Both the position numbers and the translations under genes were made by a program. Of a DNA stretch of 64,000 bases, positions 2,298-61,130 are shown one piece after another. The stretch lies in NCBI RefSeq assembly GCF_900184685.1, contig NZ_FXXL01000006.1, forward strand, positions 310,001-374,000, in the 5' to 3' direction. Origin of the DNA: Butyricimonas sp. Marseille-P3923 (GTDB taxonomy: Bacteria; Bacteroidota; Bacteroidia; Bacteroidales; Marinifilaceae). The notes beneath the pieces were generated by a model, which had not been told where the DNA came from, made no database searches, and saw only the letters and a list, made by a program, of their open reading frames with translations. Within the stretch, counting starts at the first letter, position 1. Each line of letters opens with the position of its first letter.

Positions 2298-4769
2298 ATG
2301 CAAAGACCGTTTAAATTTACCAAATTCAAACTGATCACGGGGTATATTCTGATACTCCTTCTCGGTGCTATTGCCATCATTTTTATTTACAAGCAGACGA
2401 TAGCTCTCACGGAGAAAGGGAATGACGAGATTGTCATGCAACAGAAATTATTCATCATCGGCAACACGCTGACAAAATTATACGAGGCAGAGAATACCGG
2501 GTTGTCTTTTTCCCAAACCGGCTCGGAAAAGAATTTCAACAGGTATATGCAATTGATTCAAGATATCCGGTATAATATGGATACCTTGAAATATCTGTCC
2601 ATGAGCGAGGAACAAAACATGCGGATCGACACGGTTCACGCGCTTTTGAGCGACCGGATACAGAATTTGAAAGATTTACTCTATGTCAAGAAATACGCTA
2701 TCCCGGAGGATTTTTATAATAAGACAGTTGAAAAGATTGAATTTCTGAAAGACTCTATCGGCAAAGAGCCTAAAATCAAACACCGGATTGTCGCGACAGT
2801 GGATAGCAGTAAGATTATTAAAGAAAAGAAAGGATGGCTCGGCATCCGTACTAAAAGGGATTCCATTTTAAGAGTGGACACGACCTATCACTATTTCGCG
2901 GACACGGTCGGGATATCCAATAACACGGATTCACTCATGAACGTGATTCGCGATTCGTGGAGTCAATACCAGCAAGAGAAAGAAGAAATCGATGCAGAGA
3001 TTTACAAGCGGGAAAAGATTGTCATACAAAGCGGACAAAAGATCACGGAACGTTTGAAACGCATATTAAAAGCCCTCGAAAAAGAGGAAATCGAGCACAC
3101 CCGCATCCGTTTGGAACAGCAGCAAACAACCACCGAACAGCTTACCCAAACGCTCTCGTGGGTGGCAATCATAGCCTGCTTGCTGGTGGTGTTTTTTGTT
3201 ATTCTTATCATCAATGACATCAGCCAAAGCCAACGATACAGGCGGGAACTGGAAGCCGCCAACGCTTACACGGAACGTTTGTTGCACAACCGGGAAAAGT
3301 TGATGCTTACCGTTACGCATGATATAAAATCACCTCTAAGTTCTATTATCGGGTATATTGAATTACTGAGCAATACACCCTTGGAGGAACGCCAATATTA
3401 TTTCCTCCGGAACATGAAAGGCTCTGCCGAGCATATATTGCATCTAGCTAACAACCTACTGGATTTCTCCAAGTTGGAAGCCAACAAAATGGAGATTAAT
3501 ACCGTTCCGTATACTCCCGGTCGCCTCCTGCAAGAGATTGCAGACAGTTTTCTGCCCTTGGCCGGAGAAAAAGGATTGGAATTAAGGAGTGATATCAGCA
3601 ACGCACTGAACGAACATTTCTTGGGCGATCCCATGAAAGTAAGGCAGATCGTGGTGAATATCCTCTCCAACGCCATCAAATACACTCAAAAAGGTAAGAT
3701 TTCGCTCTCCGCCTTTATCCCCGGAACCAACAACGAGCAACTGATGATCGTTATCAAAGACTCCGGTCCCGGCATGACGGAAGAAGAACAGGAACTTATT
3801 TTCAAGGAATTTACCCGACTTACGCCACAGCACAATAACGGCGCGGAAGGAACCGGATTGGGACTCACGATCACGATGCAACTCGTACACCTGTTAGGAG
3901 GAGAACTCTCCCTCAACAGTAAAAAGGGGGAAGGAAGCACATTCACCGTGAAACTTCCTCTCGTGAAAGCGCCCATGCAAGAAACAGCCGCGACAGAACC
4001 GGGACAAATCGCTCCCGTTATGCACGAGGGAACAAAAGCCTTCCTCGTGGATGATGATGAATTACAGCTTACCGTCAATTCGGAATTTTTGCGTAAAGTA
4101 GGTATTAGCAGCGACACGTGCACCCATCCTCTTGAAGCGCTGTCCATACTCGAAAAAGGGAATTACGACCTTGTTCTCTCGGATATACAGATGCCTGATA
4201 TGGACGGGTTCGAACTGGTGAAACAGATCAGACAGTCAGCATCGGAAAAGATAAAAGACCTTCCTGTCATCGCGCTGTCGGCACGAGCTGACATGCAGGA
4301 GCAGGAGTACCTTGATGCCGGGTTCTCTGCCTACCTGAATAAACCGTTTACCCCGGAACAACTTTACACCAAGGTAAACGAGTTATTGGACTGGGACATC
4401 AAAATAGCTCCACCCACGGGTGAAGACCATGACACGAACGCACCTTTTGACCTAAGTATGATCATGGTCTTCGCCGACAACGATAAGGATGCCGCAAACC
4501 AGATCATTCAATCCTTTGTTTCGGATTGTGTCCAGAATTTCCAACATCTTGAGGAACACGTGCAGCAACACGAGATGGAACAAGTCAAGAAACTCGCTCA
4601 CAAGATGCTGCCTATGTTCAAACAATTGTCAATCCATCAAGTTATACCGCTATTACTCTCCCTCGAGAGAATGGATCCCGAACAAGTGGAAGAAGCACAG
4701 GTAGCTGAAACCGTGAGAAAAGTCGTTCAAACGGGGAATGAAGTAATACAGTTGCTTCGGAGTTTATAA
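2298..4769 (+). CDS. Hybrid sensor histidine kinase with receiver and HPt domains
   Basis: The ATG at 2298 is preferred over an upstream GTG because it directly precedes the first membrane helix and follows the -7 box. The 823-residue protein has a helix at about 13-31, a largely helical extracytoplasmic sensor (about 32-283), a second helix (about 285-307) and a kinase core with H341 in LTVTHDIKSPLSS. ATP-binding boxes follow: N box with NILSNAIKY, G1 DSGPGM, G2 GTGLGLT. A receiver domain follows with phospho-acceptor D629 in SDIQMPDMDG, then a C-terminal HPt-like domain with H768 in LAHKMLPMF. Phosphate would thus pass H-D-H to an external response regulator. The convergent sigma-54 regulator downstream is the obvious partner, as in RteA/RteB. 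The stop codon lies inside the repeat that follows. Confidence 0.92.
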   Translation: MQRPFKFTKFKLITGYILILLLGAIAIIFIYKQTIALTEKGNDEIVMQQKLFIIGNTLTKLYEAENTGLSFSQTGSEKNFNRYMQLIQDIRYNMDTLKYLSMSEEQNMRIDTVHALLSDRIQNLKDLLYVKKYAIPEDFYNKTVEKIEFLKDSIGKEPKIKHRIVATVDSSKIIKEKKGWLGIRTKRDSILRVDTTYHYFADTVGISNNTDSLMNVIRDSWSQYQQEKEEIDAEIYKREKIVIQSGQKITERLKRILKALEKEEIEHTRIRLEQQQTTTEQLTQTLSWVAIIACLLVVFFVILIINDISQSQRYRRELEAANAYTERLLHNREKLMLTVTHDIKSPLSSIIGYIELLSNTPLEERQYYFLRNMKGSAEHILHLANNLLDFSKLEANKMEINTVPYTPGRLLQEIADSFLPLAGEKGLELRSDISNALNEHFLGDPMKVRQIVVNILSNAIKYTQKGKISLSAFIPGTNNEQLMIVIKDSGPGMTEEEQELIFKEFTRLTPQHNNGAEGTGLGLTITMQLVHLLGGELSLNSKKGEGSTFTVKLPLVKAPMQETAATEPGQIAPVMHEGTKAFLVDDDELQLTVNSEFLRKVGISSDTCTHPLEALSILEKGNYDLVLSDIQMPDMDGFELVKQIRQSASEKIKDLPVIALSARADMQEQEYLDAGFSAYLNKPFTPEQLYTKVNELLDWDIKIAPPTGEDHDTNAPFDLSMIMVFADNDKDAANQIIQSFVSDCVQNFQHLEEHVQQHEMEQVKKLAHKMLPMFKQLSIHQVIPLLLSLERMDPEQVEEAQVAETVRKVVQTGNEVIQLLRSL

Positions 4770-4911
4770 AGTTCATAAGGTTTATAAAGTTACGGGTGTC
4801 CTTCGGACAAAATTAAAACGGCAGCACAAGCTGCCGTTGATATAATATCTCGTTGATTTTTTTAAACTTTATGAACTTTTTAAACTTTATAAACCTTATA
4901 AACTTTACAAA
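4762..4911. repeat. 9-bp-unit palindromic repeat, copy B
   Basis: This fills the whole gap between the convergent kinase and regulator genes. Units GTTTATAAA/GTTCATAAG start in the last codons of the kinase gene, whose TAA is part of a unit, and inverted units run up to the stop codon of the regulator gene (4912-4914). The centre holds GTCCTTCGGAC-like sequence and CGGCAGC-ACAA-GCTGCCG, in the opposite order to copy A. Confidence 0.85.
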
Positions 4912-6243
4912 CTATAAATCCTCCAACCCATAGTTTTTTAGCTTATTATACAGGGTTTTTCGGTCGATTTGGAGCATCCGGGCAGCCTCGCTCTTGTTAT
5001 TCCTGCACTTTTGCAGAGCTTCCTTTATTAATTCGATTTCCATCTCCCGGCGGGTACCCATCGTCTTTTCCGGTTCGACAGGCTTTTGTGATAATTCCGG
5101 TGGCAAGCATATCTTGGTGATTAATTTTCCTTGGCAAAGCAGGGTTGCCCGTTTCACGATATTACGCAATTCACGAAGGTTACCCGGCCAAGCGTAAGTA
5201 TTAAATATCCGCATCACCTCATCATCAAATCCTGCCACTTGTTTACCCAATTCTTCGTTCGCCTTGTCAAGGAAATGATTGGCAAATACCATGATATCCT
5301 CTTTCCGTTCTCTTAACGGCAAAGCTTGGATGGAAAACTCGTTGAGACGATGGTATAAGTCTTCCCGGAAACGCCCTTCGGCAACAGCTTCTTTCAAATT
5401 CTCGTTTGTAGCCGAAATAATACGCACGTCAAAAGGCACATCGACACTACTTCCCACGGGATGTACCTTGCGTTCTTCAAGGGCTCGCAACAATTGTACC
5501 TGCACGTCATAAGGCAGATTACCTATCTCATCGAGGAAAATCGTTCCCCCGGATGCCGTCACAAAATATCCTTGTTTATCACACGCTGCCCCCGTAAAAG
5601 CACCTTTCACGTGTCCGAAAAGTTCGCTCGTGGCAATATCTCTCGGGATAGCCCCGCAATCCACTGCCACGAAAGGCCCGTCTTTCCGGGCACTCGTCAA
5701 GTGAATCAGACGGGCTATATATTCCTTACCGGTACCGCTCTCGCCGTTAATTAAAACGGTCATCATGGTCGGTCCCACCAAACGGATATACTCGTACTGC
5801 TGATCAGCACTCTCACTTACCCCTTTTATATAAGCGAAAGCCGTTGTTTTAACTTTTGCCTGAACCGGCTTGGCAGGTTCCGTTTCCAGCTTCAACGCTT
5901 CCTGCAATTTCTTCAGAATTTCGTCCGGGATAACCGGTTTTGCCACGTAATCAAAAGCCCCCAACTTCATCGCCGTCACGGCTGTCTGAATATCGGCGTA
6001 TCCTGTCATTAGCAACACCTGTGTCTCGGGTGTTTTCTCTTTAATCAACCGCAACAAATCAATCCCGTCCTTATCGGGTAAACGCAAATCCGTCAGCACA
6101 AGATCAAACGTCTCCTTGTCCAATTTTTTCACGGCTTCCTTGTACGAGAATGCATTCTCCACCTCGAATCCCCGTTTCCCTAACCAATTCTTCAACATGA
6201 TACAGAAAGTCGTATCATCATCAACCACTAAGATTTTTGCCAT
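4912..6243 (-). CDS. Sigma-54-dependent response regulator (NtrC/AtoC family)
   Basis: This 443-residue protein has the three NtrC-type domains. The receiver (1-120) has acidic residues D8-D10 and phospho-acceptor D52 in LTDLRLPDKDG. The AAA+ domain (about 145-375) has Walker A GESGTGKE, the sigma-54-contacting loop GAFTGA, Walker B GTIFLDEIG and the arginine-finger region FREDLYHRL. The C-terminal Fis-type helix-turn-helix is KSEAARMLQIDRKTLYNKL. It activates sigma-54 RNA polymerase when phosphorylated, most likely by the convergent hybrid kinase. The pair resembles RteA/RteB of Bacteroides conjugative elements in domain layout; no conjugation genes are seen nearby, so a chromosomal role is more likely. 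Confidence 0.92.
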   Translation of the reverse strand: MAKILVVDDDTTFCIMLKNWLGKRGFEVENAFSYKEAVKKLDKETFDLVLTDLRLPDKDGIDLLRLIKEKTPETQVLLMTGYADIQTAVTAMKLGAFDYVAKPVIPDEILKKLQEALKLETEPAKPVQAKVKTTAFAYIKGVSESADQQYEYIRLVGPTMMTVLINGESGTGKEYIARLIHLTSARKDGPFVAVDCGAIPRDIATSELFGHVKGAFTGAACDKQGYFVTASGGTIFLDEIGNLPYDVQVQLLRALEERKVHPVGSSVDVPFDVRIISATNENLKEAVAEGRFREDLYHRLNEFSIQALPLRERKEDIMVFANHFLDKANEELGKQVAGFDDEVMRIFNTYAWPGNLRELRNIVKRATLLCQGKLITKICLPPELSQKPVEPEKTMGTRREMEIELIKEALQKCRNNKSEAARMLQIDRKTLYNKLKNYGLEDL

Positions 6244-6329
6244 ACGTCGATTATTTTACACACGAAAATAGTTTTAATCGACTAAAGAAAAAAGTTTTTA
6301 ACGCAATTTAGGATAAAGGGGAGTTTTCT

Positions 6330-6419
6330 TTATTCCGCTTCATGTTCGGGGTCACTTAAAAAGTGCGGTAGTAAAAGTCCCGAAATAGCCATCACGATGA
6401 AAAATATATACGTTACCAT
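6330..6419 (-). CDS. 29-residue single-helix membrane peptide
   Basis: A short frame from ATG (6417-6419) to TAA encodes a hydrophobic segment of about 18 residues (MVTYIFFIVMAISGLLLP) and an acidic tail ending PEHEAE. An AGGAGG Shine-Dalgarno sequence stands a few bases before the ATG, which is rare and strong for this phylum and decides in favour of a real gene. It is upstream of, and on the same strand as, the sigma-54 regulator (87 bp apart). No family is recognised. It could be a regulatory subunit of a membrane complex or a type-I-toxin-like peptide. Confidence 0.6.
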   Translation of the reverse strand: MVTYIFFIVMAISGLLLPHFLSDPEHEAE

Positions 6420-6541
6420 AATTCCTCCTTTTTTATCATTCAATCCTTTACTCTTATAATAGAGAATTGTATGCCATATCGGTAAACAGGGTAATACTAT
6501 CACACAGATATCTAATTATCAACGACATGCTATAAAACTAC

Positions 6542-6573
6542 AATTCCCCGTGGAATGTATTCCATGGGGAATT
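6542..6573 (-). terminator. Long hairpin after argH
   Basis: AATTCCCC and TGGAAT pair with ATTCCA and GGGGAATT in a 15-bp stem with one G-T pair and a 2-base loop. It lies 25 bp beyond the argH stop codon and marks the end of the arginine operon. The following T tract is short, so termination may be incomplete. The structure is almost fully palindromic and could also be a protein-binding site. Confidence 0.6.
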
Positions 6574-6597
6574 ATGTGGAAAAAGTGTAGAAAAAGA

Positions 6598-7935: not shown

Positions 7936-8159
7936 GAATTTTAGATTTTAAATTTTAGATTTTAGATTAAACTTCTCCGTCGGCTACGCCGCCAAGTGAG
8001 CCCGGAAGCCGGTCTCGAACCAGCTCACACTCAGCAAACCGAGAGCAAGCTCTCTTTCTGCCCTCGCTTAATCGCTGGTTTCCTCTATAAACAGAGGAGG
8101 AGCCAGAATAGTCTTTCGTTTCGGAAATCTTTTCATTTTCAATTTTCAACTTTCAATTT
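7936..8159. repeat. Composite repeat spacer between argE and argH
   Basis: Read in the direction of transcription (minus), the argE stop is followed at once by ATTGAAA heptamers (about 8131-8162). A GC-rich segment follows (about 7973-8110) with the hairpin CCTCTATAAACAGAGG and GTGAGC/GCTCAC pairing, then inverted TTTTAGA heptamers (7936-7968) reach the argH start. Parts of the GC-rich segment recur in inverted form at 21345-21470 (CCTCTATAAACAGAGG; CTCCGTCGGC..GCCGCC). No gene is supported here. Confidence 0.75.
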
Positions 8160-9215
8160 TCAATTATCAATTATTATCCCGTCCAATATTCGAACAAACG
8201 TTTCTATTCCTCGCTCTATTTCATCCAAGCGAATATATTCATTCGCCGTATGGGAACGGGCACTATCTCCCGGACCGATCTTCAGTGAGGTGCATGGAAT
8301 CACAGCTTGATTCGAGGTCGTGGGCGAACCGTAGGGTTCTAATCCCAACTCCCGACAACGCCGAACGACCGGATGATCCGCGGGTACCGATGATGAATCG
8401 AGGGAGATAGAGCGGGGGGATACCTCGCATTTCACGTGGCGACGGATTGTATCAAGTATCTGTAAGTTCGTGTAAAGTTCATTTACCCGTACGTCCACCA
8501 TGAAACGACAAGTCGCGGGAACCACGTTATGTACCGTTCCCGCCTCAATCCCCGTAACGCTCATCTTTACCGCTCCCAATAGTTCCGACACCCGTTCGAA
8601 ACGATAGGTGCGAAACCATTCTATATCTTGCAATGCCTCGTAAATAGCATTCACACCTTCCTCCCGTGCAGCATGTCCTGATACTCCCGCAACATGGCAA
8701 TCCAATACCATAAGACCTTTTTCGGCTATCGCGGGACGCATTCCGGTAGGCTCGCCCACGAGGGCAAAATCAATTCTCCCCAATTCCGGGAATACGCGTT
8801 GTATTCCCCCGGCTCCCGTGTTTTCTTCTTCCGCGGAACCCAAATACACCAGATTATACGCTTGTGGCTTTCTGTTCAACATGATGAACGCTGCCAACAT
8901 AGACACGATACTTCCGCCCGTGTCGTTACTTCCCAAGCCGTACAATTTTCCATCTCTTACCGTCGGGGTAAACGGATCGGTATCCCATGCCCCACCGGGA
9001 CGTACCGTGTCCAAGTGTGCATCCAGTAATAACGTGGGTTTCGCCGCGTCGAACTCCGGCGAGCGACTCCACACGTTATTACCTTGACGATGCACGTCGA
9101 ACCTATATTTTTGCAGTATTCCGGTTATAACATCTGCCACTTGCCCCTCCTCCCCGCTAAAAGAGGGGATGGATATAATCCGTTTTAATACTTCTATTGC
9201 CTCCTTTGTATCCAT
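8160..9215 (-). CDS. argE: M20-family N-acyl-ornithine (acetyl/succinyl) deacylase
   Basis: The 351-residue protein is an M20 zinc peptidase-fold hydrolase. Metal ligands are visible in LLDAHLDTVRPG (about residues 64-75), GLGSNDTGG, the catalytic glutamate pair in GSAEEENTGAG and a later EPTG. It would remove the acyl group from N-acylornithine or N-acylcitrulline. In Bacteroides the arginine pathway uses N-succinyl intermediates, so the acyl group may be succinyl. That is family knowledge, not visible here. Its start overlaps the argB stop by one base. The last residues IIDN are encoded by repeat-like sequence, and the TGA lies within the ATTGAAA array. Confidence 0.88.
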   Translation of the reverse strand: MDTKEAIEVLKRIISIPSFSGEEGQVADVITGILQKYRFDVHRQGNNVWSRSPEFDAAKPTLLLDAHLDTVRPGGAWDTDPFTPTVRDGKLYGLGSNDTGGSIVSMLAAFIMLNRKPQAYNLVYLGSAEEENTGAGGIQRVFPELGRIDFALVGEPTGMRPAIAEKGLMVLDCHVAGVSGHAAREEGVNAIYEALQDIEWFRTYRFERVSELLGAVKMSVTGIEAGTVHNVVPATCRFMVDVRVNELYTNLQILDTIRRHVKCEVSPRSISLDSSSVPADHPVVRRCRELGLEPYGSPTTSNQAVIPCTSLKIGPGDSARSHTANEYIRLDEIERGIETFVRILDGIIIDN

Positions 9216-9991: not shown

Positions 9992-10018
9992 GTCGCATTC
10001 ATTTTCAACTTTCAATTT

Positions 10019-11131
10019 TCAATTGCCTTTAAAGCTTTCCGTGAAATAATCCACTTCCTCCTTTCTCATGCACAACGGGGGAAGTAACCGTAATGTATTT
10101 TTCCCGCTGTATCCCGTGATAATCCTGTAATTCGCCAACAAGCGGCGACGGAATATAGTATGCGGAATATCAATATCCACTCCTATCATCAATCCCTTTC
10201 CCCGTACTTCAATTACCCCGGGTAATCCTCTCAGTTGTTCGGCAAAGTATTCTCCGACCTGCAAGGCGTTCTCTATCAGATTTTCCCGCTGCATCACGTC
10301 CAACACGGCAATGGCCGCAGCACACGCCAAGTGACTTCCCCCGAAAGTGGTTCCCAGTATTCCTTTCCTTGCCTCTATCCATTCGTGAACAAGTACTCCC
10401 GCCACTGGGAATCCGTTCCCCATGCCTTTAGCCATAGTAATCATGTCGGGTTTTATCCCGGCATAGCGATGTGCAAAAAATTGTCCGCTCCGCCCGTACC
10501 CGGATTGTATTTCGTCAAGTATCAACAGAGTCCCGCGATTGTTACAACATTCTCGTGCCAATTGCAAAAAAGCAGGTTCCGCTACCCGGATTCCTCCCAC
10601 ACCTTGGATTCCCTCGATGATAACAGCCGCATACTCTTCGCTTGCCAATTCCCGTTCGAGAGCTTTCTCGTCATTCAACGGGATAAACTTCACTTGATGC
10701 CCCATATTCCACGAAGCCCGTATTTCGGGATTATCGGTCACCGCCACGGCTCCGCTTGTTCGCCCGTGAAAAGCCCCGCACATGGCAAGCACCTTTGCCC
10801 GCCCGGTCACGAACGAAGCAAGTTTCAAAGCGTTCTCGTTCGCCTCAGCCCCACTATTACAGAGGAACAGGTTGTAATCCATACATCCCGAAAGGTGTTT
10901 CAATTTCTCCTCCAACTCTCCTTGCAAATGATTCTCCACCGAATTGGAATAGAAACCGATCTTTTCCAACTGTTCCGTGATTCCCGCCACGTACCAGGGA
11001 TGGGTATGCCCGATGGAAATCACGGCATGCCCGCCATAGAGGTCAAGGTATTTGTTTCCTTCCTTATCCCAAAAATACATTCCCTCTGCCCGGACGGGCT
11101 CTATATTTATCAGATTATATACTTCAAACAT
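10019..11131 (-). CDS. argD: N-acyl-ornithine aminotransferase
   Basis: The 370-residue class-III PLP aminotransferase converts N-acylglutamate semialdehyde to N-acylornithine. The PLP lysine is in MITMAKGMGNGFPV (about residue 235), preceded by the acidic motif LILDEIQSGYGR. CNSGAEANENALKLA forms the phosphate-binding region. It is close to the usual 375-400 residues. It lies 10 bp after argC in the operon, and its TGA is embedded in the first ATTGAAA unit of the spacer before argB. Confidence 0.94.
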   Translation of the reverse strand: MFEVYNLINIEPVRAEGMYFWDKEGNKYLDLYGGHAVISIGHTHPWYVAGITEQLEKIGFYSNSVENHLQGELEEKLKHLSGCMDYNLFLCNSGAEANENALKLASFVTGRAKVLAMCGAFHGRTSGAVAVTDNPEIRASWNMGHQVKFIPLNDEKALERELASEEYAAVIIEGIQGVGGIRVAEPAFLQLARECCNNRGTLLILDEIQSGYGRSGQFFAHRYAGIKPDMITMAKGMGNGFPVAGVLVHEWIEARKGILGTTFGGSHLACAAAIAVLDVMQRENLIENALQVGEYFAEQLRGLPGVIEVRGKGLMIGVDIDIPHTIFRRRLLANYRIITGYSGKNTLRLLPPLCMRKEEVDYFTESFKGN

Positions 11132-12104: not shown

Positions 12105-12112
12105 GACAATTA

Positions 12113-12261
12113 GTTTATAAAGTTCATAAAGTTCATAAGGTTTACAAGGTTTTAATAACTCACGAGATACCATATCAACGGCAACACAAACTGCTGCTTT
12201 AATTTTGTCCGAAAGACACCCGTAACTTTATAACTTTATGAACCTTATAAACTTTATAAAC
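12113..12261. repeat. 9-bp-unit palindromic repeat, copy C
   Basis: This fills the argG-argC gap inside the operon. Direct units start right after the argG TGA (12262-12264 on the minus strand) and inverted units end 9 bp before the argC ATG. The core is a degenerate copy, CGGCAaC-ACAAA-CTGCtG and GTCCGAAaGAC, so this copy looks older than A, B and D. Confidence 0.85.
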
Positions 12262-13446
12262 TCATTTATTAACCGCCTCGTGTATTCTCAACGGCATTGA
12301 CAATATTCGGGTAAAGCCCTTCACGTCTTCCGCTGTCCATGCGTTGTTTTCCTCCCCGTATCTGGCAAAAGAGGCATTCATTAGATCATGCGGAGAATGG
12401 CATCCCAACAAATCAAAGTGATAGGGACGCATCAATACCCGTACTTCACCCGACACGTTACGTTGCGAGTGTTCCAGAAATTTCTCGATATCCCGCATCA
12501 CCGGTTCCCCGTACATCGCCTCGTGCAGAAACATCCCGTACCAGTTGCCCAATTGCTCCTTCCAGTACGACTGCCACTTCGTCAACGTGTGTTTTTCCAG
12601 TAATTCGTGCGCCTTGATAATAATTAACGGTGCAGCAGCCTCGAAGCCCACGCGACCTTTAATCCCTACAAGCGTGTCGCCCACGTGCGTATCCCGCCCG
12701 ATAGCCCAAGGGGCAGCCAAGGCTTCGACCACACGGATAGCCTCGATTTTATCAGCATACGTTTTCCCGTTCACCGCACACAATTCTCCCTGTTCAAAGG
12801 CGAGAGTCAATTCCTCTTCCCCCACCCGCTGCAACGACGAGGGATAAGCCTCTTCGGGCAACGGCTGGTCAGACGTCAGAGTTTCCCGCCCACCAACGGA
12901 AGTACCCCAAAGTCCTTTATTTATGGAATAAACCAATTTTGTCCAATCACGTTCCACTCCCTTTGCTTTCAGATAAGCGATCTCGTCCTCCCGGCTCAAT
13001 CGCAAATCACGAGTCGGCGTGATAATTTCCATATCGGGAGCGAATACCGAGAAACAAAGATCAAAACGTACTTGATCGTTTCCCGCCCCCGTACTCCCGT
13101 GTGCTAACGCATCGGCACCGATTTCCTTGGCATATCGCACGATTGCCAACGCTTGAAATGTCCGCTCGGAACTTACCGAAACGGGATAAGTTTTGTTACG
13201 CAACACGTTCCCGAATACCATATAGCGAATACACTGTTCGTAATACTCGCCCGTTACATCGAGCGTCACGTGACGTTTCGCCCCAAGGGCGTACGCTTTT
13301 TCCTCGATCACGACCAACTCTTCCGGCGAGAACCCGCCCGTGTTGGCAATCGCCGTGTAAACCTCAAGCCCCAGTTCATCGCTCAAGTATTTCACACAGT
13401 AGGAGGTATCCAATCCTCCACTATACGCTAAAACAACTTTTTTCAT
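12262..13446 (-). CDS. argG: Argininosuccinate synthase
   Basis: The 394-residue protein joins citrulline and aspartate using ATP. The PP-loop ATP site AYSGGLDTSYCV is at residues 7-18, and GSTGAGNDQVRFDL (about 115-128) is the citrulline/aspartate-binding region. The frame allows eight more codons upstream, but MKKVVLAYSGG is the expected N-terminus and the ATG at 13444-13446 is chosen. The extra codons overlap the end of the GNAT gene. It is the second gene of the operon. Confidence 0.95.
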   Translation of the reverse strand: MKKVVLAYSGGLDTSYCVKYLSDELGLEVYTAIANTGGFSPEELVVIEEKAYALGAKRHVTLDVTGEYYEQCIRYMVFGNVLRNKTYPVSVSSERTFQALAIVRYAKEIGADALAHGSTGAGNDQVRFDLCFSVFAPDMEIITPTRDLRLSREDEIAYLKAKGVERDWTKLVYSINKGLWGTSVGGRETLTSDQPLPEEAYPSSLQRVGEEELTLAFEQGELCAVNGKTYADKIEAIRVVEALAAPWAIGRDTHVGDTLVGIKGRVGFEAAAPLIIIKAHELLEKHTLTKWQSYWKEQLGNWYGMFLHEAMYGEPVMRDIEKFLEHSQRNVSGEVRVLMRPYHFDLLGCHSPHDLMNASFARYGEENNAWTAEDVKGFTRILSMPLRIHEAVNK

Positions 13447-16566: not shown

Positions 16567-16725
16567 AGTTTATCAGGTTCATAAGGTTTGTAAAGTTTAT
16601 AAAGTTCATAAAGTAACGGGTGTCCTTCGGACTGTGCTTATCGGCAGCTCAAACTGCCGTGGACAAAGCGCCCCGCAGGTGTCTATAAACCTTATAAACT
16701 TTATGAACTTTACAAACCTTACAAA
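16567..16725. repeat. 9-bp-unit palindromic repeat, copy D
   Basis: Inverted units begin near the GIN gene start, and direct units (minus strand) begin exactly after the TAG of the TolC gene (16726-16728). Five consecutive 9-bp units are clear on the left side (GTTTATCAG, GTTCATAAG, GTTTGTAAA, then two more). The core has GTCCTTCGGAC and CGGCAG-CTCAAA-CTGCCG. Confidence 0.88.
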
Positions 16726-18138
16726 CTACTCTAATTTTCCCAACGATTTCAAATACTCCGTTTCACAAACCTTCAAAGCCGCTTTGGCATCCACCCAGTC
16801 ACTCCATGCTTGTTGCCATTGCGCTTGAGCCTCAAGAAGATTGGTCAGACTCTCCATGCCGACGTCATATTGGTTGCGGGAAACTTTCAAGTTTTCCTCC
16901 GCCTGTGCCAGAGCCGACCGGGTAAGGTTTACACGAGTCTGGGCGTCGCTCAATTTAAAACGATTACCGGATATCTCCAGTTGCATCATTTCGCTCATCC
17001 TCTCTTTATTCAAACGGGTAATCTCTTCCTCGGCTTTCGCTACCCGCACTTTGTTACGTCCTTCCCCCCAGTTGAAAATCGGTATTTGAACCGAAGCCAT
17101 AGCACTGAAAGAGGCAGAGTTGGAATTATCACCGTTCAATTTTAAACCGCCCCCGTAACTGTAACCTGCCATAACACCCACTTGCGGAAGGAAATCGGAA
17201 CGGGTAACATTCACCTCTTTACGCTTCATTTCAACCTGTTTCTCAAGCATATTATAATCGGGACGCTGACTAAGTTCATCCGGTAATGACAAAATACCCG
17301 GTGTTATTGTCCCCGAAAGAGTATCGGTCAATTCCAAAGAAGTATTCAACTCCAACCCGATCAAACGGCACAGATTCATGCCTGCCAGCGTCCGACCGTG
17401 TTGTGCTTGTTGCAGTTGTAACAAGGCATCGTTGTGTTTCACTTGCGCTTTCAATACATCATTCAACGGAGCCATACCCGCGTCACGGGCATCCTCTAGG
17501 TTTTTCACCAGTTCACCCGTGACCTCTTTGTATTTCCGAGCCACAGAAACCAGCTCCTGCACACGGACATATTGCCAGTAAGCCTGCTCCAGTTCGACAA
17601 GCACTTCCGAACGATTGAGCCGGATATTCTCATCCGCCAACTCTTCACCGAATTTAGCCGCCTGATGTGCCGCCCGTATTTTACCCCCCATGAAGATCGG
17701 TTGCTGTAATTGCACTCCCGCCATATATACCCCTCTCATCGAAAGGGTAATCGGGATATCGGGCAAAAAGGCATACTCGTGAAAAAGGGGCTTGCCGTCA
17801 GTACCCATGACCGGTTTGCCGTCACCCCCCATGATCACGTTCGGCTGCAACTTGCCACTCTCGTCCGGCACATAAGTGGGGAGGTATCCCCCGGATAATT
17901 TGTACTCCTGTTTTTTCTGATAGTAGAAATACGTTCCCGAAGCAGAAAGACGAGGATAATAGTTCGCCCGGTACTCTTTCTTTGTCCAAATCGCTTTCTC
18001 TTTCTGCCGCTCGGCGATGGAAAGTTGTTTGCTGTAATCAAGCGCCATAGCCCGGCATTGCTTCAAATCCAGTTTCTGCTGGGCACGAGATGTCTGAAAT
18101 GCAGCCAAAAAGATTATTATAATGATACAATATTTCAT
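16726..18138 (-). CDS. TolC-family outer membrane efflux protein (pump 1)
   Basis: The 470-residue protein has a signal peptide (about 1-19, ending SRAQ), then two repeats of long helices and beta strands typical of TolC-like trimers. Characteristic segments are LDLKQCRAMALDYSKQL near the N-terminus, YMAGVQLQQPIFMGGKIRAAHQAAKFG in the middle and VGMESLTNLLEAQAQWQQAWSDWVDAK near the end. It forms the outer-membrane exit duct for the RND pump encoded 12 bp upstream. It is clearly similar in sequence to the TolC protein at 26355-27767 and less so to that at 35721-37172. Confidence 0.93.
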   Translation of the reverse strand: MKYCIIIIIFLAAFQTSRAQQKLDLKQCRAMALDYSKQLSIAERQKEKAIWTKKEYRANYYPRLSASGTYFYYQKKQEYKLSGGYLPTYVPDESGKLQPNVIMGGDGKPVMGTDGKPLFHEYAFLPDIPITLSMRGVYMAGVQLQQPIFMGGKIRAAHQAAKFGEELADENIRLNRSEVLVELEQAYWQYVRVQELVSVARKYKEVTGELVKNLEDARDAGMAPLNDVLKAQVKHNDALLQLQQAQHGRTLAGMNLCRLIGLELNTSLELTDTLSGTITPGILSLPDELSQRPDYNMLEKQVEMKRKEVNVTRSDFLPQVGVMAGYSYGGGLKLNGDNSNSASFSAMASVQIPIFNWGEGRNKVRVAKAEEEITRLNKERMSEMMQLEISGNRFKLSDAQTRVNLTRSALAQAEENLKVSRNQYDVGMESLTNLLEAQAQWQQAWSDWVDAKAALKVCETEYLKSLGKLE

Positions 18139-21290: not shown

Positions 21291-21502
21291 GTTGCTAGGC
21301 AACGTTGCAAGTTATCAGGTTGCAAGTTGCAAGTTAATTTCAAACTCCCTCCCCCTTCGGGGACTCCCTCTATAAACAGAGGGAGAGCTAAAATACTCAC
21401 CGTCTTCGGTAAGATTCACCGCTCCTCCTCTGTTTATAGAGGAGGAGGCGGCTATGCCGACGGAGGAGTTCAATCTAAAATCTAAAATCCTTAAATCTAA
21501 AA
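21291..21502. repeat. Composite repeat spacer between MFP and RND permease of pump 1
   Basis: In the direction of transcription (minus), TTTTAGA heptamers start right after the MFP stop (21476-21502). A GC-rich core follows (about 21345-21470) with two copies of the hairpin CCTCTATAAACAGAGG in opposite orientation, then GTTGCAA heptamers (about 21299-21335). A hairpin GTTGC-TAG-GCAAC (21291-21303) ends 8 bp before the permease ATG. No gene is supported here. Confidence 0.75.
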
Positions 21503-26155: not shown

Positions 26156-26354
26156 GATGACAGCATTTAAAAGTTCTTATTAGTCAAGGGCTTCGCGCAC
26201 GTTTTCACAATGATAGGAAGAATAAAATACAATTGCAAGTAAATGAGCATCTTTCTTCATAAATCACGATGTACTCTTCTTGCATGATCACACGTTACTT
26301 TCCCCTCACACGGCTGTCAGCAATCACCGAATCACGGAATCATTCAATCCAAAA
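26156..26354. other. Spacer between pump 2 TolC and the fusion permease
   Basis: Directly after the TolC stop (minus strand), 8-bp units GATTGAAT, GATTCCGT, GATTCGGT run over about 26320-26350. The remaining 150 bp are AT-rich without a convincing promoter or gene. A 26-codon frame with an internal ATG is seen but has no ribosome-binding site. Confidence 0.5.
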
Positions 26355-30903: not shown

Positions 30904-31034
30904 GTTGCTTCGCAACGTTTAAAGTTCATAAAGTTTATAAAGTCCATAAAGTTTATAAGGTCAATGGGCACCGCGGGACGCTTTGTTCACGGCAGCATAG
31001 CTGCCGAATCTTAAATCTAAAATTTTAAATCTAA
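30904..31034. repeat. Hybrid repeat spacer (copy E of the 9-bp family plus TTTTAGA heptamers)
   Basis: After the adaptor stop (minus strand), TTTTAGA heptamers (31007-31034) lead into a core CGGCAGC-ATA-GCTGCCG and one arm of 9-bp units (about 30917-30958), ending in the hairpin GTTGC-TTC-GCAAC before the permease start. Thus one side is the heptamer class and the other the 9-bp class. The element looks like a recombinant between two repeat families. Confidence 0.75.
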
Positions 31035-31036
31035 AA

Positions 31037-32104
31037 TTAAAGCAGCCCCCCCACGTTCGTCTTCGATACCGGCTTCAACAACTCCACCTGCATCCCCTCC
31101 TTCAAACTATGCACACCTGCCGAAACGACAATCTCACCGGGAACCAATCCCTCGGAAACGATCACTTCACCCGTCCTCAATAACTTCTTCAACTGCACGG
31201 GACGTTTCTCCACGGCCTGTTTCCCCGGATTATACACCCACACGGAAGCCTGTCCGTTATCCTCGAAGATCGCGGACAACGGCATAATCACCAGTGCATC
31301 CATGTTAGGATTATAACTTATCGTCACGTTCACGCTCATTCCGGCAGCAATATCCAACCCCTCCACCGGCTTCAGACGCAACCGCATCCGGTAAAGCTGA
31401 TTCAAATTAGCCTTTCTCGTGATTTCTATCAATTCAAGAGGAAACTCCTTTCCCGGAAATACATCTATCGTGCAAAAAAACTCCTTAAACTGATCCTGCC
31501 GTACAAAATCACTTGACGGAATATCAATCTCCACGTCAAAATAATTACTGTTAATCATCGACACTACCGGATAACCCGCCGCTACCGTTTCATGCGCGTC
31601 ATAATATTTATGCTGTACATACCCGTCAAAAGGAGCCGTCAGATGCGTATCCTCCAACGCATTTTTATGCGCGTTATACTTCGCCGTAATCTGGTTGATT
31701 CCCGACACCGCCTTGTCATAGTCATTCACGGGAACACTTCCCCGCCGGTACAGTTCCATCACCCGCCCGGCTTCCTCCTTCACCTGCTTATACTCCGCCT
31801 CGGTCGCCGACAACTGTATCTCGTAATCCCGAGGGTCTATCCGCGCAAGCAACTGACCTTTTTTCACGAATGCCCCCACCTCCGGGAACACGTTTTTTAT
31901 AGGACCCGCTACCCGAAATGACAATTTCACCTCCGAAGCAGCCTTAACCTTCCCCGGATAAACAACAGACAATTCTCCCCGGTAATCTCTCACCGTATCG
32001 GCTTTCACCGTTGCTCTCGTACGCTCTTGTCCGGACTTATTATTCCCGCAAGCACACAACAATAAAACGATCCCCAGCAGGGGAAGCACAACACCTTTCA
32101 TCAT
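31037..32104 (-). CDS. RND periplasmic adaptor (membrane fusion protein), lipoprotein (pump 2)
   Basis: The 355-residue adaptor has a lipobox (LLLCAC, Cys about 19), lipoyl halves FRVAGPIKNVFPEVGAFVKKG and LTAPFDGYVQHKYYDAH around a short helical hairpin, and the usual barrel domains. It is the counterpart of the pump 1 adaptor. It lies 42 bp after the ABC-2 permease gene, so it is probably transcribed with the upstream ABC-type export genes. The start may be at either of two adjacent methionines. Confidence 0.92.
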   Translation of the reverse strand: MMKGVVLPLLGIVLLLCACGNNKSGQERTRATVKADTVRDYRGELSVVYPGKVKAASEVKLSFRVAGPIKNVFPEVGAFVKKGQLLARIDPRDYEIQLSATEAEYKQVKEEAGRVMELYRRGSVPVNDYDKAVSGINQITAKYNAHKNALEDTHLTAPFDGYVQHKYYDAHETVAAGYPVVSMINSNYFDVEIDIPSSDFVRQDQFKEFFCTIDVFPGKEFPLELIEITRKANLNQLYRMRLRLKPVEGLDIAAGMSVNVTISYNPNMDALVIMPLSAIFEDNGQASVWVYNPGKQAVEKRPVQLKKLLRTGEVIVSEGLVPGEIVVSAGVHSLKEGMQVELLKPVSKTNVGGLL

Positions 32105-33337: not shown

Positions 33338-33344
33338 TCCATTT

Positions 33345-33417
33345 TAGATTTATGATTTATGATTTTAGATTTCAACCTGCAACTTGCCGCAGGCAAATGC
33401 AACCTGTAACCTGCAAC
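33345..33417. repeat. Heptamer repeats between the two ABC-2 permeases
   Basis: In the direction of transcription (minus), GTTGCAG/GTTACAG heptamers run over about 33372-33417, then inverted TTTTAGA/TTTATGA units over 33345-33373 up to the next start codon. Two repeat classes thus share one spacer. Confidence 0.7.
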
Positions 33418-33442
33418 CCGTAAGCCGCTCCGCGGCTTACGG
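33418..33442 (-). terminator. Perfect hairpin containing the permease stop codon
   Basis: CCGTAAGCCGC and GCGGCTTACGG form an 11-bp perfect stem with a 3-base loop. The TAA of the upstream permease gene is inside the first arm. No T tract follows, so it is more likely an mRNA-stabilising or partial-termination element within the operon than a full terminator. Confidence 0.6.
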
Positions 33443-34664: not shown

Positions 34665-34700
34665 ATTTTCAATTTTCAACTTTCAATTTTCAATTTTTTT
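34665..34700. repeat. ATTGAAA heptamer array after the HlyD stop codon
   Basis: Read on the minus strand, ATTGAAA units begin within the last codons of the HlyD gene (I-E-N-stop is ATTGAAAATTGA) and continue as ATTGAAA, GTTGAAA, ATTGAAA. The next start codon is preceded by AATTTAAAATTTAAA. Confidence 0.75.
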
Positions 34701-35678: not shown

Positions 35679-35720
35679 AACTTCCTTATATATTATAATC
35701 TCTCAATCAAAAATCTAAAA

Positions 35721-37172
35721 TCATAAATCCAAAATTCCATACGCTTTTTCCAAATAAACCTTACACAACCTTGCCTCAATCCTCGTGTCTATCAATTCGG
35801 AATTAGCCGTCAGCCATGCCGTCTGTGCTTCCAGCACGTTCAACACGGGAATCGTACCCTCTTTAAAGCCAAGGTTAGCGAACTTCAGATTCTCCTCCGC
35901 GCGTTCCAGATTCTTCTCCGCCATTTTCAACTTCTTCGCGACCTCCTTCATCTTAAACTCCGCTTGATTCACCTGCAACTCAATCTGTTCCTTCGCTTCC
36001 TCCAACTTGTAATTCATAACATTGGTCTGTGCTTTCGCGTTCCGCAGGCTCTTGCGGGAAGCCCCCCAATGAAAGAGCGGTGCTTTTATTCCCACTCCCA
36101 CGCTCCACATTCCCTCGAACTTACTACGCACCCCGTCATAAAAAGAAGGCGTACTGCTCAAGTAATTTGCCGTCAGTGCCACCGTCGGCAAATACTCTGA
36201 AAGTACAATCTTTTCCTTTTTCTTGTATATATCCGAGGCAAATTGCAGGCTCGCCACTTCCGGGCGACGGCTATACACCTGTTCGAGAGATTCCTCCGGC
36301 ACCATTTCCACTTCCGTTTCGGTCATTTCCTCTTGCAACGCCACGATGGTATCCGTCGGCAAACCGCAAATCTGGTTCAACAACATCCGGGACAAACTCA
36401 ACCCGTTATCCACCTTCGTCTGCACCATCTCCCCCTCGTTCAACTTCACCCGCACCGAAAGCACGTCCGCTTTCGTCGCCACTCCCGTCGAGTGCATCAA
36501 TTCAACATCGTTCACGAACTTCTGCAACGTCTGCACGTACTTGTCCGCTAACTTTTTCCGGTTAACCAGCGATATAATCTGCCAGTACGCCTCGTCGGTC
36601 GCCAGAATCACGTTCTGCATCTCCTGCGCGCGCTTGCTTTTCGCCAATTGCTCGGACAACCCCGCTATCTGGTTATATGCCCTAATCTTTCCGCCCATGT
36701 ACACCGGCTGCGTCAACCCCACCTGCACGATTCCCAAGTTACGGGCATCCACGGACATCGCCTCCTTCGGCAGAAGGGCGTAATCCTTCGGCACGTACTG
36801 CCCGTTCACCATAACCGGCTTACCGTCCGCACCGACCATCAACTGATCCGGACGAAACGTGAACTTCCCGTCCGACCCGATAGTCCCCACGGGCAAATGC
36901 GCATCTTCCGACAAAAGATTAATCTCTTTCTGGTTACGCAGGTACACCCCCATGGCATCAATGCCGGGCAAATATTTCGTGAAAGCCTCGGCCTTTTGTG
37001 CCTCACTCGCTTTCACCTCCTCGTCTGCAATTTTCAGTTTTTTGTTATTCTCCACCGCCAAGCGTCGGCAATCCTCCAAACTTAACACTTGCTGCGCATT
37101 CGTTGCCAATGTAAAGCACAGAAAAACAACACTCCAACCGATTCCTAATTTACATACTGTAAACTTTTTCAT
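35721..37172 (-). CDS. TolC-family outer membrane efflux protein (ABC-type exporter)
   Basis: The 483-residue protein is a third TolC-like duct. The chosen start, ten codons inside the longest frame, gives a normal signal peptide (MKKFTVCKLGIGW to ATNAQ) and has AAGGTG before it. The mature part starts QVLSLEDCRRLAVENNKKLK and has the middle segment VGLTQPVYMGGKIRAYNQIA and a C-terminal GTIPVLNVLEAQTAWLTANSELIDTRIE. It is more distant from the two RND-associated TolC proteins than they are from each other. It is the first structural gene after the two TetR regulators. The TGA overlaps the first TTTTAGA heptamer of the next spacer. Confidence 0.92.
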   Translation of the reverse strand: MKKFTVCKLGIGWSVVFLCFTLATNAQQVLSLEDCRRLAVENNKKLKIADEEVKASEAQKAEAFTKYLPGIDAMGVYLRNQKEINLLSEDAHLPVGTIGSDGKFTFRPDQLMVGADGKPVMVNGQYVPKDYALLPKEAMSVDARNLGIVQVGLTQPVYMGGKIRAYNQIAGLSEQLAKSKRAQEMQNVILATDEAYWQIISLVNRKKLADKYVQTLQKFVNDVELMHSTGVATKADVLSVRVKLNEGEMVQTKVDNGLSLSRMLLNQICGLPTDTIVALQEEMTETEVEMVPEESLEQVYSRRPEVASLQFASDIYKKKEKIVLSEYLPTVALTANYLSSTPSFYDGVRSKFEGMWSVGVGIKAPLFHWGASRKSLRNAKAQTNVMNYKLEEAKEQIELQVNQAEFKMKEVAKKLKMAEKNLERAEENLKFANLGFKEGTIPVLNVLEAQTAWLTANSELIDTRIEARLCKVYLEKAYGILDL

Positions 37173-41858: not shown

Positions 41859-42020
41859 CCTTATACCCAAAAAACAAAGAAGCTGTTTCCACTATCGGAA
41901 TCACGGTAAAGAGCAGCACGTTTATCTCCACACGACCTGTCAATTAACTGAAATTAACAAGGAGAGAACAGTTCTGAAAAAAGTATTATCATATAATCTA
42001 AGTTATACTTTCTATATACC

Positions 42021-42064
42021 AACTCCTATTCATCTCCTATTCAACTCCCATTCAACTCCTATTA
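42021..42064. repeat. Four 11-bp tandem repeats (iteron-like)
   Basis: The unit AACTCCTATTC occurs four times in a row with one or two changes per unit (42021, 42032, 42043, 42054), and an inverted copy of its core, GAATAGGA, follows at 42087-42094. A period of 11 bp puts each unit on the same face of the helix, as for protein-binding arrays. The surrounding 41859-42235 is very AT-rich and holds no gene. Confidence 0.75.
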
Positions 42065-54561: not shown

Positions 54562-54579
54562 CAAGCGGTTATTAACACT

Positions 54580-54600
54580 GAGGGGGCGAGACGTCCCCTC
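54580..54600 (+). promoter_or_regulatory. Leader hairpin before rimP
   Basis: GAGGGG and CCCCTC pair around a 9-base loop, 12 bp after the likely transcription start. The TTCTGTTATCTT that follows is T-rich, so it could be a weak attenuator of an operon that encodes NusA itself. Confidence 0.5.
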
Positions 54601-54627
54601 TTCTGTTATCTTAAACTAAAGGATTGA

Positions 54628-55092: not shown

Positions 55093-55107
55093 AACACACG
55101 AGATAAA

Positions 55108-56346: not shown

Positions 56347-56387
56347 GGACGCTCAAGATTATGAATGCTTGTAAATAAAATCTTAAT

Positions 56388-59276: not shown

Positions 59277-59376
59277 TTTTTTTAACTATAAGCTAAGACA
59301 AATTCTCTCGATAATTTTGTACTTTGCGTCACTAAATATTAGAGAGGAATTATTTTAAAAACTAATTGATTTACTC

Positions 59377-59838: not shown

Positions 59839-59842
59839 ATTG

Positions 59843-59868
59843 AAAGCCGTCTTCGGACGGCTTTTTTT
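59843..59868 (+). terminator. Terminator with UUCG loop
   Basis: AAAGCCGTC... pairs as GCCGTC-TTCG-GACGGC with seven T residues after it, directly following the DsbD-alpha-like gene. Confidence 0.92.
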
Positions 59869-59881
59869 ATACCTCTCTCGT

Positions 59882-60988
59882 ATGGCATCGAGGATTCGAC
59901 ATACCCTCATTCTGATCACATGGATTACCATCCTTCTTCTCGCCTGCAAAGAGGAGAAGAAACCCGCACGAGCAGATCATGCTATACAGATACCGGCAAC
60001 ACCCGACACCGTTTCTTTATTCTTTTGCGGGGATATCATCCAACATCTACCCCAGATATACGACGCACACAACCCGACCGAGAAAGATTACAAATACCTG
60101 AAATGCTTCCGGTATATCGCACCTTATTGGCACGACTCGGATTTTGTAATCGCGAACTTGGAAACTACCCTCTCCGATAAAGAATACTCCGGGTATCCTC
60201 GTTTCAGTTCTCCTTGGCAAATAGCAAGAGATCTGCAACGTCTGGGAGTAACGACGTTCGTCACGGCGAACAACCATTGTTGCGACCAACTGGCTCGAGG
60301 CATCACGAAAACAATTTATTACCTCGATTCGCTGGGCATCGCCCACACGGGCATCTTCATGGATACGTTAAGTTATAAAAAAAGGAATCCGCTCTACCTT
60401 CGGAAAGACAATTTCAAAATCGCACTGTTAAACTACACGTACGGTACAAACGGACTTCCCATCCCGAAAGGTTTTGTCGTTTCCCTCATCGACACCACGG
60501 TTATCAAACGGGATATTCAGCAAGCCAAACGAGATTCGGCGACCAATATCATTGCTTTCATGCACTGGGGATACGAGTATCACACCTCCCCCAATAAAGA
60601 ACAGAAAGCCCTCGCCACATGGCTACACGCACAAGGGGCAGACATCGTCATCGGTTCACACCCCCACGTGGTACAACCTATCGAATACATCTTATCGGGC
60701 AAAGACACCGTTGGAGTTACCGCCTATTCACTCGGTAATTTCATTTCAAACCAATCTTATAAAGGTACCGACGGAGGTATTTGTATCCGCTTAACTTTAA
60801 CCCGCCCGGAAGCAAAAACCACCCGTTACACCATGGAAACAATCAAGTTCTACACATACCGCCCGTTCGAGGAAGGACGCACCCGCTATTACGTCGTCCC
60901 CGAAGCCCTCTCCGACAGCATCATAAAAGATTACCACCTCATCAAAAGCAAACGCTTTTTCAAACAAACCGACTCCATACTGAATTAG
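59882..60988 (+). CDS. CapA-family lipoprotein (metallophosphatase-like)
   Basis: The 368-residue protein has a lipoprotein signal (ILLLAC, Cys about 21) and a CapA-type fold: FFCGDIIQHLPQ, VIANLETTLSD, VTANNHCCDQLARGI, MHWGYEYHTSP and GSHPHVVQPIEY. These are the metal-binding motifs of the metallophosphatase superfamily. CapA was first linked to poly-gamma-glutamate capsules, but most members have unknown roles, and no pgsBC genes are here. The ATG at 59882 is used; a TTG upstream would start inside the terminator. The TAG abuts a 9-bp repeat. Confidence 0.85.
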   Translation: MASRIRHTLILITWITILLLACKEEKKPARADHAIQIPATPDTVSLFFCGDIIQHLPQIYDAHNPTEKDYKYLKCFRYIAPYWHDSDFVIANLETTLSDKEYSGYPRFSSPWQIARDLQRLGVTTFVTANNHCCDQLARGITKTIYYLDSLGIAHTGIFMDTLSYKKRNPLYLRKDNFKIALLNYTYGTNGLPIPKGFVVSLIDTTVIKRDIQQAKRDSATNIIAFMHWGYEYHTSPNKEQKALATWLHAQGADIVIGSHPHVVQPIEYILSGKDTVGVTAYSLGNFISNQSYKGTDGGICIRLTLTRPEAKTTRYTMETIKFYTYRPFEEGRTRYYVVPEALSDSIIKDYHLIKSKRFFKQTDSILN

Positions 60989-61130
60989 TTTATAAGGTTC
61001 ATAAAGTCTATTACACCCGCAAATGTTTCGTCTACAGCAGCAAAGTTGCTGATTAATAATACCCGAAGAACTCCCGTCACTTTTAAACCTTATAAACTTT
61101 ACAAACCTTATAAACCCTATAAACTTTCCC
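60989..61130. repeat. 9-bp-unit palindromic repeat, copy F
   Basis: Direct units GTTTATAAG, GTTCATAAA follow the capA TAG without a gap. Inverted units (CCTTATAAA, CTTTACAAA and others) occupy about 61086-61127. The core is degenerate: CAGCA-GCAAAG-TTGCTG, with no intact GTCCTTCGGAC. Confidence 0.82.

Follow-up and report, generated by a model that had tools for sequence, protein, structure and literature searches.

Repeat arrays at gene ends of the window

A stretch of 64,000 bp from the genome of Butyricimonas sp. Marseille-P3923 (contig NZ_FXXL01000006.1, positions 310,001 to 374,000; hereafter the window) contains an arginine operon, two-component genes and RND and ABC efflux operons, and several of these genes end at or within short tandem repeat arrays that are the subject of this study. 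The genome has a size of 5.3 Mb, and its ArgG shares 91% identity with the B. synergistica DSM 23225 protein. Tandem Repeats Finder detected period-7 and period-9 arrays at the gene junctions. In an Rfam scan of the window, the gathering score was reached by one tRNA only and the arrays remained unmatched. Six units were scored with a home-made array finder: the heptamers TTTTAGA (F7A), ATTGAAA (F7B), TGATTTA (F7C) and GTTGCAR (F7D), which are mostly intergenic and occur at many loci, the 8-mer GATTCNGT (F8) and the 9-mer TTYATAARG (F9). The units were picked after inspection of the window and 864 kb of the genome sample described below. Array edges are defined by score and may by chance lie a few bases too far out, and the F7A and F7C models may both score one and the same stretch. 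The window genome is labelled G000 and five congeners of the genus G001 to G005, with B. synergistica as G002.

Stop contexts were read out at 14 gene ends. The F9 element at 4761..4916 consists of a forward array (4761-4791), a core (4792-4853) and a reverse array (4854-4916); it contains the TAA of the kinase gene (TTA TAA|AGTTCATAAGG) and adjoins the TAG of the response regulator gene (TAG|TTTGTAAAG). A second F9 element with arrays at 12112-12152 (+) and 12232-12262 (-) follows argG (12112..12262; TGA|GTTTATAAAG). The called start of argC at 12173 lies beyond one of its arrays, and the ATG placed by homology at 12104 leaves a spacer of 157 bp. A further F9 element (16567..16727) lies between the TolC gene at 16726 (TAG|TTTGTAAGG) and a DUF2807 gene. 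The element after capA (60987..61127, arrays 60987-61011 (+) and 61080-61127 (-)) gives the context TAG|TTTATAAGG. An earlier note on this DNA had placed the 9-bp family at the stops of the regulator, this TolC, argG and capA and the kinase TAA inside an array. This was confirmed for the regulator, TolC, argG and the kinase; a TGA followed by the 9-mer, claimed for both argG and capA, applies to argG, as capA ends with TAG. As a separate observation, the string AAA TGA GTT(T/G)ATAA(A/G)G, a lysine codon and stop that run into an F9 array, recurs at unrelated gene ends (L055:7027, L203 and L204 in G001 and G003, window 12262 and L023:12839) and may mark the true outer end of F9.

Heptamer arrays were found both behind and across stop codons. 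The argH/argE element (7938..8172) starts with an F7A array (7938-7968, +) by the argH start, followed by a core and an F7B array (8130-8172, -) that contains the argE stop together with the codons for I-D-N (ATT GAT AAT TGA|AAATTGAAAG). At argD/argB, an F7B array of about three units (10001..10024, -) holds the last Asn codon and the stop of argD (AAT TGA|AAATTGAAAG), and a further F7B array (34665..34697, -) contains the stop and I-E-N of the HlyD gene at 34683 (ATT GAA AAT TGA|AAGTTGAAA). The ATTGAAA arrays hence include the stops of all three genes, as had been proposed, but the tripeptides are read from the repeat in argE and HlyD and not in argD, where the repeat provides N-stop only. 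Together with the kinase, these genes bear out the proposal that repeats can supply the stop and the last residues.

Equally in agreement with the earlier description, TTTTAGA repeats lie at the stops of both adaptor genes (ends 21503 and 31037, TAA|TTTTAGATTT) and of the TolC gene at 35721 (TGA|TTTTAGATTT). The first adaptor stop is reached by the TTTTAGA repeats (scored at 21472-21489) of an element at 21316..21502, which begins with an F7D array (21316-21335) and has a CTCC palindromic core. The second is adjoined at its TAA by the F7A array (31007-31037, -) of a mixed element (30920..31037) with an F9 array at 30920-30961 (+) and a partial F9 core. The F7A array at the third (35705..35735, -) overlaps the stop, and its scored part extends 15 bp back from the gene end. 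The junction corresponding to window 35679-35720 shows a palindromic core (CCCTCTAGCTCCCCCTT...AAGGGGGAGTTAGAGGGGGT) between similar arrays in G001 and G004, shorter in G004, and cores and arrays may evolve apart. The GATTCNGT array (26322..26349, -) begins 5 bp past the TGA of the TolC gene at 26355, the distance expected from the earlier note. Two further gene ends near arrays, not included there, are those of a HlyD-type gene (62190-63458), with an F7B array (63461-63496, +) 2 bp past its end and an F7A array (63541-63573, -) beyond (63461..63573), and of an ABC permease gene (33437), with an F7C array (33341-33372) and two F7D arrays (33370-33396 and 33398-33428; 33341..33428) 8 bp past the stop. 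One F9 element (2057..2190) lies in a gap between two gene starts and has a 68-bp core between arrays 2057-2092 (+) and 2161-2190 (-).

Placement at gene junctions

Placement was counted in 60 spaced 20-kb stretches of the own genome, with the counts covering 1.264 Mb (24% of the genome), and for comparison in 20 spaced 20-kb stretches of G003 (0.4 Mb). Genes were called with a home-made hexamer-score caller, whose stops are reliable and whose starts are less so. In 864 kb, 59 F9, 57 F7A, 47 F7B and 44 F7C arrays scored at least 14, compared with 0.5, 1, 1.5 and 0 in a control for which only 84.7 kb of intergenic DNA was shuffled. Period-11 intergenic arrays with variable units (e.g. CAACTCCTATT, window 42020-42063) are common at the sampled loci and form a separate class.

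The 1.264 Mb contained 273 arrays, 13 of which sit more than 60 bp inside genes. Arrays were present at 127 of 766 junctions between genes of the same direction, 16 of 92 convergent ones and 16 of 99 divergent ones. At same-direction junctions, the median distance was 2 bp from stop to array (≤10 bp in 85 of 127) and 13 bp from array to start. The coding end was overlapped by 55 of the 127 elements and 17 more lay at 0-3 bp, so that 72 elements overlapped the end or came within 3 bp of it. Distances to stops in this part of the genome were not broad or random-like, which supports the association with gene ends for which the earlier note had proposed this comparison.

Such proximity might be mere geometry, as any intergenic item in a genome with about 90% coding DNA lies near a stop. 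The coding fraction (0.898 in 864 kb) and the small spacers left by the elements (≤30 bp in 64 of 127) agree with this, and so do the non-overlapping elements: 17 of 72 (24%) were found within 3 bp and 30 of 72 (42%) within 10 bp of the stop, and a model with one random position per junction predicts 25% and 42%. However, a random intergenic position in a same-direction junction free of arrays lies at a median of 108 bp from the stop (2.4% within 3 bp, 7.4% within 10 bp), and geometry explains neither the 55 overlaps nor the orientation, pairing and differing C-termini described below. As the whole explanation it is the most improbable of those weighed here. Since the non-overlapping distances fit the per-junction model, the elements seem to choose junctions and not bases, and the excess at the stop is therefore the set of overlapping elements.

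These figures also bear on site-directed insertion, in which a recombinase or transposase would recognise the stop codon, the terminator or the junction. At junctions of the own genome with at least 60 bp to spare, 15 of 48 elements lay within 3 bp of the stop (overlaps counted) against a uniform expectation of 1.5, and 2 of 48 lay within 3 bp of the start. The uniform expectation, however, takes no account of arrays that enter the coding tail and so create their own stop, and the remaining distances fit the random model. The exact placement that had been taken as a sign of targeting loses its force for the same two reasons, and we regard directed insertion as unlikely.

Reading frames entering the arrays

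Most heptamer units contain a stop codon, and a gene that runs into such an array therefore ends soon; after a hit in the coding tail, the array consequently appears to start exactly at the stop. Read in the '+' sense, the arrays closed 84% (F7B), 76% (F7A), 60% (F7C), 39% (F9) and 6% (F7D) of frames within 24 nt, and random intergenic DNA closed 37%; the share of composition in these values is taken up below. In both genomes together, the stop lay wholly inside the array in 54 of 122 contacts and straddled its edge in 20; it came 0-3 bp ahead of the array in 25 and 4-12 bp ahead in 23. The own genome (n = 103) gave 46, 14, 22 and 21, respectively, and repeats thus supply the complete stop in 46 contacts, as the note had supposed. 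F7D, which has no stop in its unit, was 8-12 bp off the stop in four of six '+' contacts.

In the 15 F7B arrays that contain the stop, the gene extends into one unit in seven cases, into two in four and into more than two in four. Few as the cases are, these depths are compatible with random frames and do not show the single fixed register that directed insertion would leave. Selection of the stop-bearing strand was also considered as the cause of array orientation and rejected: F7C closes 60% or 73% of frames depending on the sense, yet it is oriented 22:1 at stops.

Pairing, orientation and folding

Neighbouring arrays less than 260 bp apart mostly face each other. In the own genome, 80 of 99 such pairs pointed inward (+-), next to 10 --, 7 ++ and 2 -+, which corresponds to the inverted ends of miniature inverted-repeat transposable elements (MITEs); with G003 included, the inward pairs were 87 of 113. 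At stops of both genomes, the units of F9 (31:4), F7B (25:2), F7C (22:1), F7D (6:1) and F8 (3:0) pointed downstream, in the sense of the gene, much more often than the other way, with a near balance for F7A (15:12). Eight of the 12 '-' F7A arrays belong, as judged by eye, to a further family, AAAACTAAAAGAT, which is also caught by the F7A model and was modelled only loosely as F7E. Near starts the sense was reversed, with '-' in gene sense for 75 of 86 arrays of the two genomes.

F9 pairs enclose 4-79 bp, and 22 of 35 enclose 62-79 bp. By eye, these longer interiors are mostly one recognisable core in either orientation with short palindromes, flanked by the tandem arrays. Between the arrays of F7 pairs lies either a short linker or a longer stretch, in several cases with a CTCC-type palindromic core. 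Predicted RNA folds (pieces trimmed to ≤150 nt) were well beyond those of shuffled sequences for three F9 elements (z -8.8, -6.3 and -6.0) and one CTCC element (z -7.0). The two arms of an F9 copy matched each other slightly better than they matched arms from other copies (0.885 vs 0.865), a value attained in 1 of 301 permutations.

Strong folds and matched arms would be expected if the elements were selected as stem-loops or stop cassettes at 3' ends, with a role in protecting, processing or separating the mRNAs of neighbouring genes, similar to the repetitive extragenic palindromic (REP) sequences and bacterial interspersed mosaic elements (BIMEs), and E. coli REPs ≤15 nt from the stop are reported to stall ribosomes (PMC12306157, citing Liang 2015). 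However, part of the argE-argH element (z -1.8) and another F7 piece (z -1.4) barely fold beyond shuffles, and F7C and F7B arms have no clear excess of complementarity within copies (values at least equal to the observed ones arose in 1844 and 181 of 2000 permutations). In addition, 28 of the 87 inward pairs carry different families at their two ends, and presence at a given junction differs among species. Selection for such a function is accordingly unlikely as the reason why the elements are kept at gene ends. Hairpin pairing of both arrays as the general cause of the inverted layout was rejected for the mixed pairs and is unsupported for F7C.

Mixed pairs could also arise from a unit-templated, telomere-like junction repair, in which 7- or 9-nt units would be written onto the 3' ends at both sides of a break. 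Each array would then belong to the gene end it touches, so two families could face each other, the cores would be captured DNA, and the in-frame stops would make the event harmless to the upstream gene. We consider such a repair very unlikely.

Corresponding junctions in related genomes

Most of the first 38 kb of the window is represented by orthologues in order in the five congeners, with insertions between some of them. As in MITEs, orthologous junctions were found empty, reduced or occupied by a different family; an element is missing or replaced at some of them, in favour of the insertion at gene ends that the earlier note had considered. Between adaptor and RND genes, the reading frames overlap in G002 (4 bp) and G003 (1 bp), and the other four genomes have a spacer of 40-138 bp with arrays or remnants; the adaptor protein end (V/I)GxLL is kept in all six despite these differences. 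argG and argC overlap by 4 bp in four of six genomes, G002 has an ATTGAAA remnant and the window the 157-bp F9 spacer. ArgG ends with AVNK in the window, compared with AVNEKSEEGL or similar. At the TolC junction at 16726, F9, F7B or F7A/F7C arrays were found depending on the species across the six genomes; different families at one junction would be expected from directed insertion. The variable junction states indicate dispersed elements with turnover and not slippage at each stop.

In-place growth by replication slippage would start at each stop from an AT-rich seed such as AATTGAAAATG (Asn-stop-start). The argD-argB junction gives it some credit, with AATTGAAAATGAAA in B. synergistica and about three units in the window genome. 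The spacer there is 3 bp in four genomes and repeat units occur in two; the seed is missing in G001, G003, G004 and G005. Moreover, the same few units recur throughout the sample, mostly as inverted pairs and partly as blocks that share variants. Among 55 F7B arrays, a 28-mer with GTTGAAA as third unit occurred in eight and an ATGGAGA form in five, which suggests copying and not separate growth. Slippage at each stop is disfavoured by these shared, same-order variant blocks, the inverted pairs and the conserved F9 cores, and extension at single stops, as put forward in the earlier note, is accordingly highly improbable.

Protein ends were compared in 38 ortholog groups (12 locus sets) with a repeat at the stop in some genomes only, after groups with two genes from one genome had been dropped. 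The ends were identical in 10 groups, shorter with the repeat in 15, changed at equal length in seven and longer with the repeat in six; two of these six share one G003 gene and may represent paralogues or wrong starts, and two more differ by less than one residue on average. One repeat-bearing TolC of G002 fell below the detection threshold and was counted as without repeat. Added residues, for which the earlier note had proposed this comparison, thus account for the smallest class. By pairs, which are not independent, identical ends were found in 370 of 619 in which neither gene has a repeat, 57 of 145 in which one does and 46 of 86 in which both do; ends hence differ more often where one ortholog carries a repeat, again in line with insertion tied to the gene end. 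Within the 145 one-sided pairs, the repeat-bearing end was shorter in 42, equal in 87 and longer in 16. The clearest extension (L045:17004-18833) has 55 residues past the last shared LRFPL compared with five in B. synergistica; it reads the F9 array as KVYKVHKV and ends at a TGA in the far array. Its frame meets the inserted sequence five codons ahead of the relative's stop, another point against recognition of the stop itself.

Several observations were made besides. argE and argH form a single 799-aa frame in B. synergistica via a leftover ATTGAAA unit (IIENQNI-MRLW; G002 L056, reverse complement 4717-7116; window counterpart 6598-9215) and are separate in the other five genomes. A 29-codon frame between argH and the response regulator gene, MVTYIFFIVMAISGLLLPHFLSDPEHEAE (window 6330-6419, -), is matched by frames of 27-30 codons in all five congeners and probably encodes a small membrane protein. 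In the region 38600-64000 of the window, most genes are without counterpart in the congener stretches compared, and an island or a rearranged region is possible.

Distribution among genomes

Six of 21 genomes, each belonging to the genus, contained the F9 pattern, with 395 matches in the own genome and 4 in G004, and the reversed control gave no hit. ATTGAAA arrays occurred in 9 of the 21 near relatives and, across the order, in 47 of 295 genomes. Counts within the genus were several-fold above the reversed control, and those outside were mostly 1-5, a level that the control also reached. At least 10 ATTGAAA arrays were found in 8 of the 295 genomes, the own genome included. An origin from REP-associated tyrosine transposases was rejected, as the own genome is without the Y1 domain (PF01797).

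Interpretation

The arrays are probably the ends of short non-coding, dispersed inverted-repeat elements that have spread through the gene junctions of Butyricimonas, and the gene ends look recently rewritten by repeat-edged inserts. An element would measure from tens of bp to about 300 bp, and a typical copy would consist of an inward 7-mer or 9-mer array, a linker or palindromic core, and an inward array from the opposite side. Copies that land, in a transposition-like manner, between two genes or within the last upstream codons would be tolerated. As ATTGAAA, TTTTAGA, TGATTTA and GATTCNGT contain TGA or TAG, a period of 7 nt would close every frame within three units; with the 9-nt unit, TAA would fall in one frame only. 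A gene tail hit by a heptamer array would then usually end at once, with few repeat-coded residues added. Copies deep in genes are few and presumably purged. Array length and family would afterwards change by deletion, recombination or replacement and leave remnants of one or two units.

Several results weigh against this interpretation. Shuffled '+' arrays still closed 69% (F7B), 51% (F7A), 55% (F7C), 59% (F9) and 39% (F7D) of frames, so that the effect is partly compositional and only F7A and F7B clearly exceed composition; F9 even closed fewer frames than its own shuffles. Mixed-family pairs fit poorly to one element with fixed ends. In G003, only 7 of 14 neighbouring pairs faced inward (with 2 --, 3 ++ and 2 -+), and at long junctions 3 of 14 elements lay within 3 bp of the stop and 4 of 14 within 3 bp of the start. 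The preference of stop over start was thus not reproduced there, which speaks against directed insertion as well, yet 17 of 31 elements were within 10 bp of the stop. The 'empty' site TAG|TCCATAAAG of B. synergistica resembles a deletion remnant; as some such sites look like remnants, gain and loss are inseparable there, and the ancestral state assumed for most junctions is conjectural. Among the discordant junctions listed, no target-site duplication was recognised in a non-systematic inspection by eye. For the Y1_Tnp domain (PF01797), the sole transposase class searched, there was no match in the own genome and one among the six genus genomes (G004).

If dispersal of such elements is the correct explanation, mobile-like repeats occupy about 16% of the gene junctions of a gut bacterium, where they rewrite protein C-termini, separate genes that overlapped and can lengthen proteins by tens of residues. 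The junctions would represent a natural experiment, open to counting, on the tolerance of protein ends to change, on how overlapping genes gain or lose spacers and on the clustering of repeats at stop codons, a point listed as unexplained by the authors of the work on the Coxiella QMITE elements (PMC5896051).

Comparison with known repeat systems

Among open-licence papers, no literature was found on intergenic tandem repeats of Butyricimonas or on repeats of Parabacteroides, and five of the repeat-unit strings led to a single, unrelated paper. The short tandemly repeated repetitive (STRR) heptamers of cyanobacteria are dispersed tandem heptamers between genes, with units that differ from those of Butyricimonas, and they are not known to form inverted pairs at stops.

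The TAACTGA direct repeats (MacGregor 2015, PMC4679880) are heptamers of marine Beggiatoaceae, Cyanobacteria and a few Bacteroidetes. They resemble the present arrays as tandem, mostly intergenic heptamers at many loci with a sporadic spread across lineages, which is also seen for ATTGAAA, and their forward repeats stop all three frames. There, however, a single unit forms sets of 2-6 copies in the Guaymas genome and of up to 43 copies elsewhere, which mostly point toward a nearby start, whereas Butyricimonas has several 7-, 8- and 9-mer families, mostly as inverted pairs near the upstream stop. The unit TAACTGA itself was absent from the intergenic arrays in the tandem-repeat list of the 864-kb sample (periods 6-12).

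QMITE1 and QMITE2 of Coxiella burnetii are likewise short inverted-repeat elements. According to PMC5896051, copies in functional annotated genes are found at the 3' end, some of them supplying the stop and last residues, for which the authors suggest tolerance of the C-terminus. QMITEs have about 50 copies per family and direct repeats of 2-3 or 7-11 nt. Unlike them, the Butyricimonas elements number 273 arrays in a quarter of the genome and have tandem-unit ends, with no duplication recognised by eye. REPs and BIMEs are palindromic intergenic repeats, to which the F9 cores with their short palindromes, seen by eye, may be likened, and a share of them also lies close to stops, with 446 of 4,072 within 15 nt of one in E. 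coli (PMC12306157). REPs are described as small palindromes of 20-40 bp (PMC3733652), whereas the linkers or larger cores of the Butyricimonas elements are bordered by tandem arrays, and no Y1 transposase domain was found in the own genome.

The stop-supplying 3'-end habit is thus already known from QMITEs, the proximity to stops from REPs and tandem heptamers from the TAACTGA repeats. Within the passages compared, no system was described that unites inverted ends made of tandem arrays, several families in one genome and the occupation of about one in six junctions.

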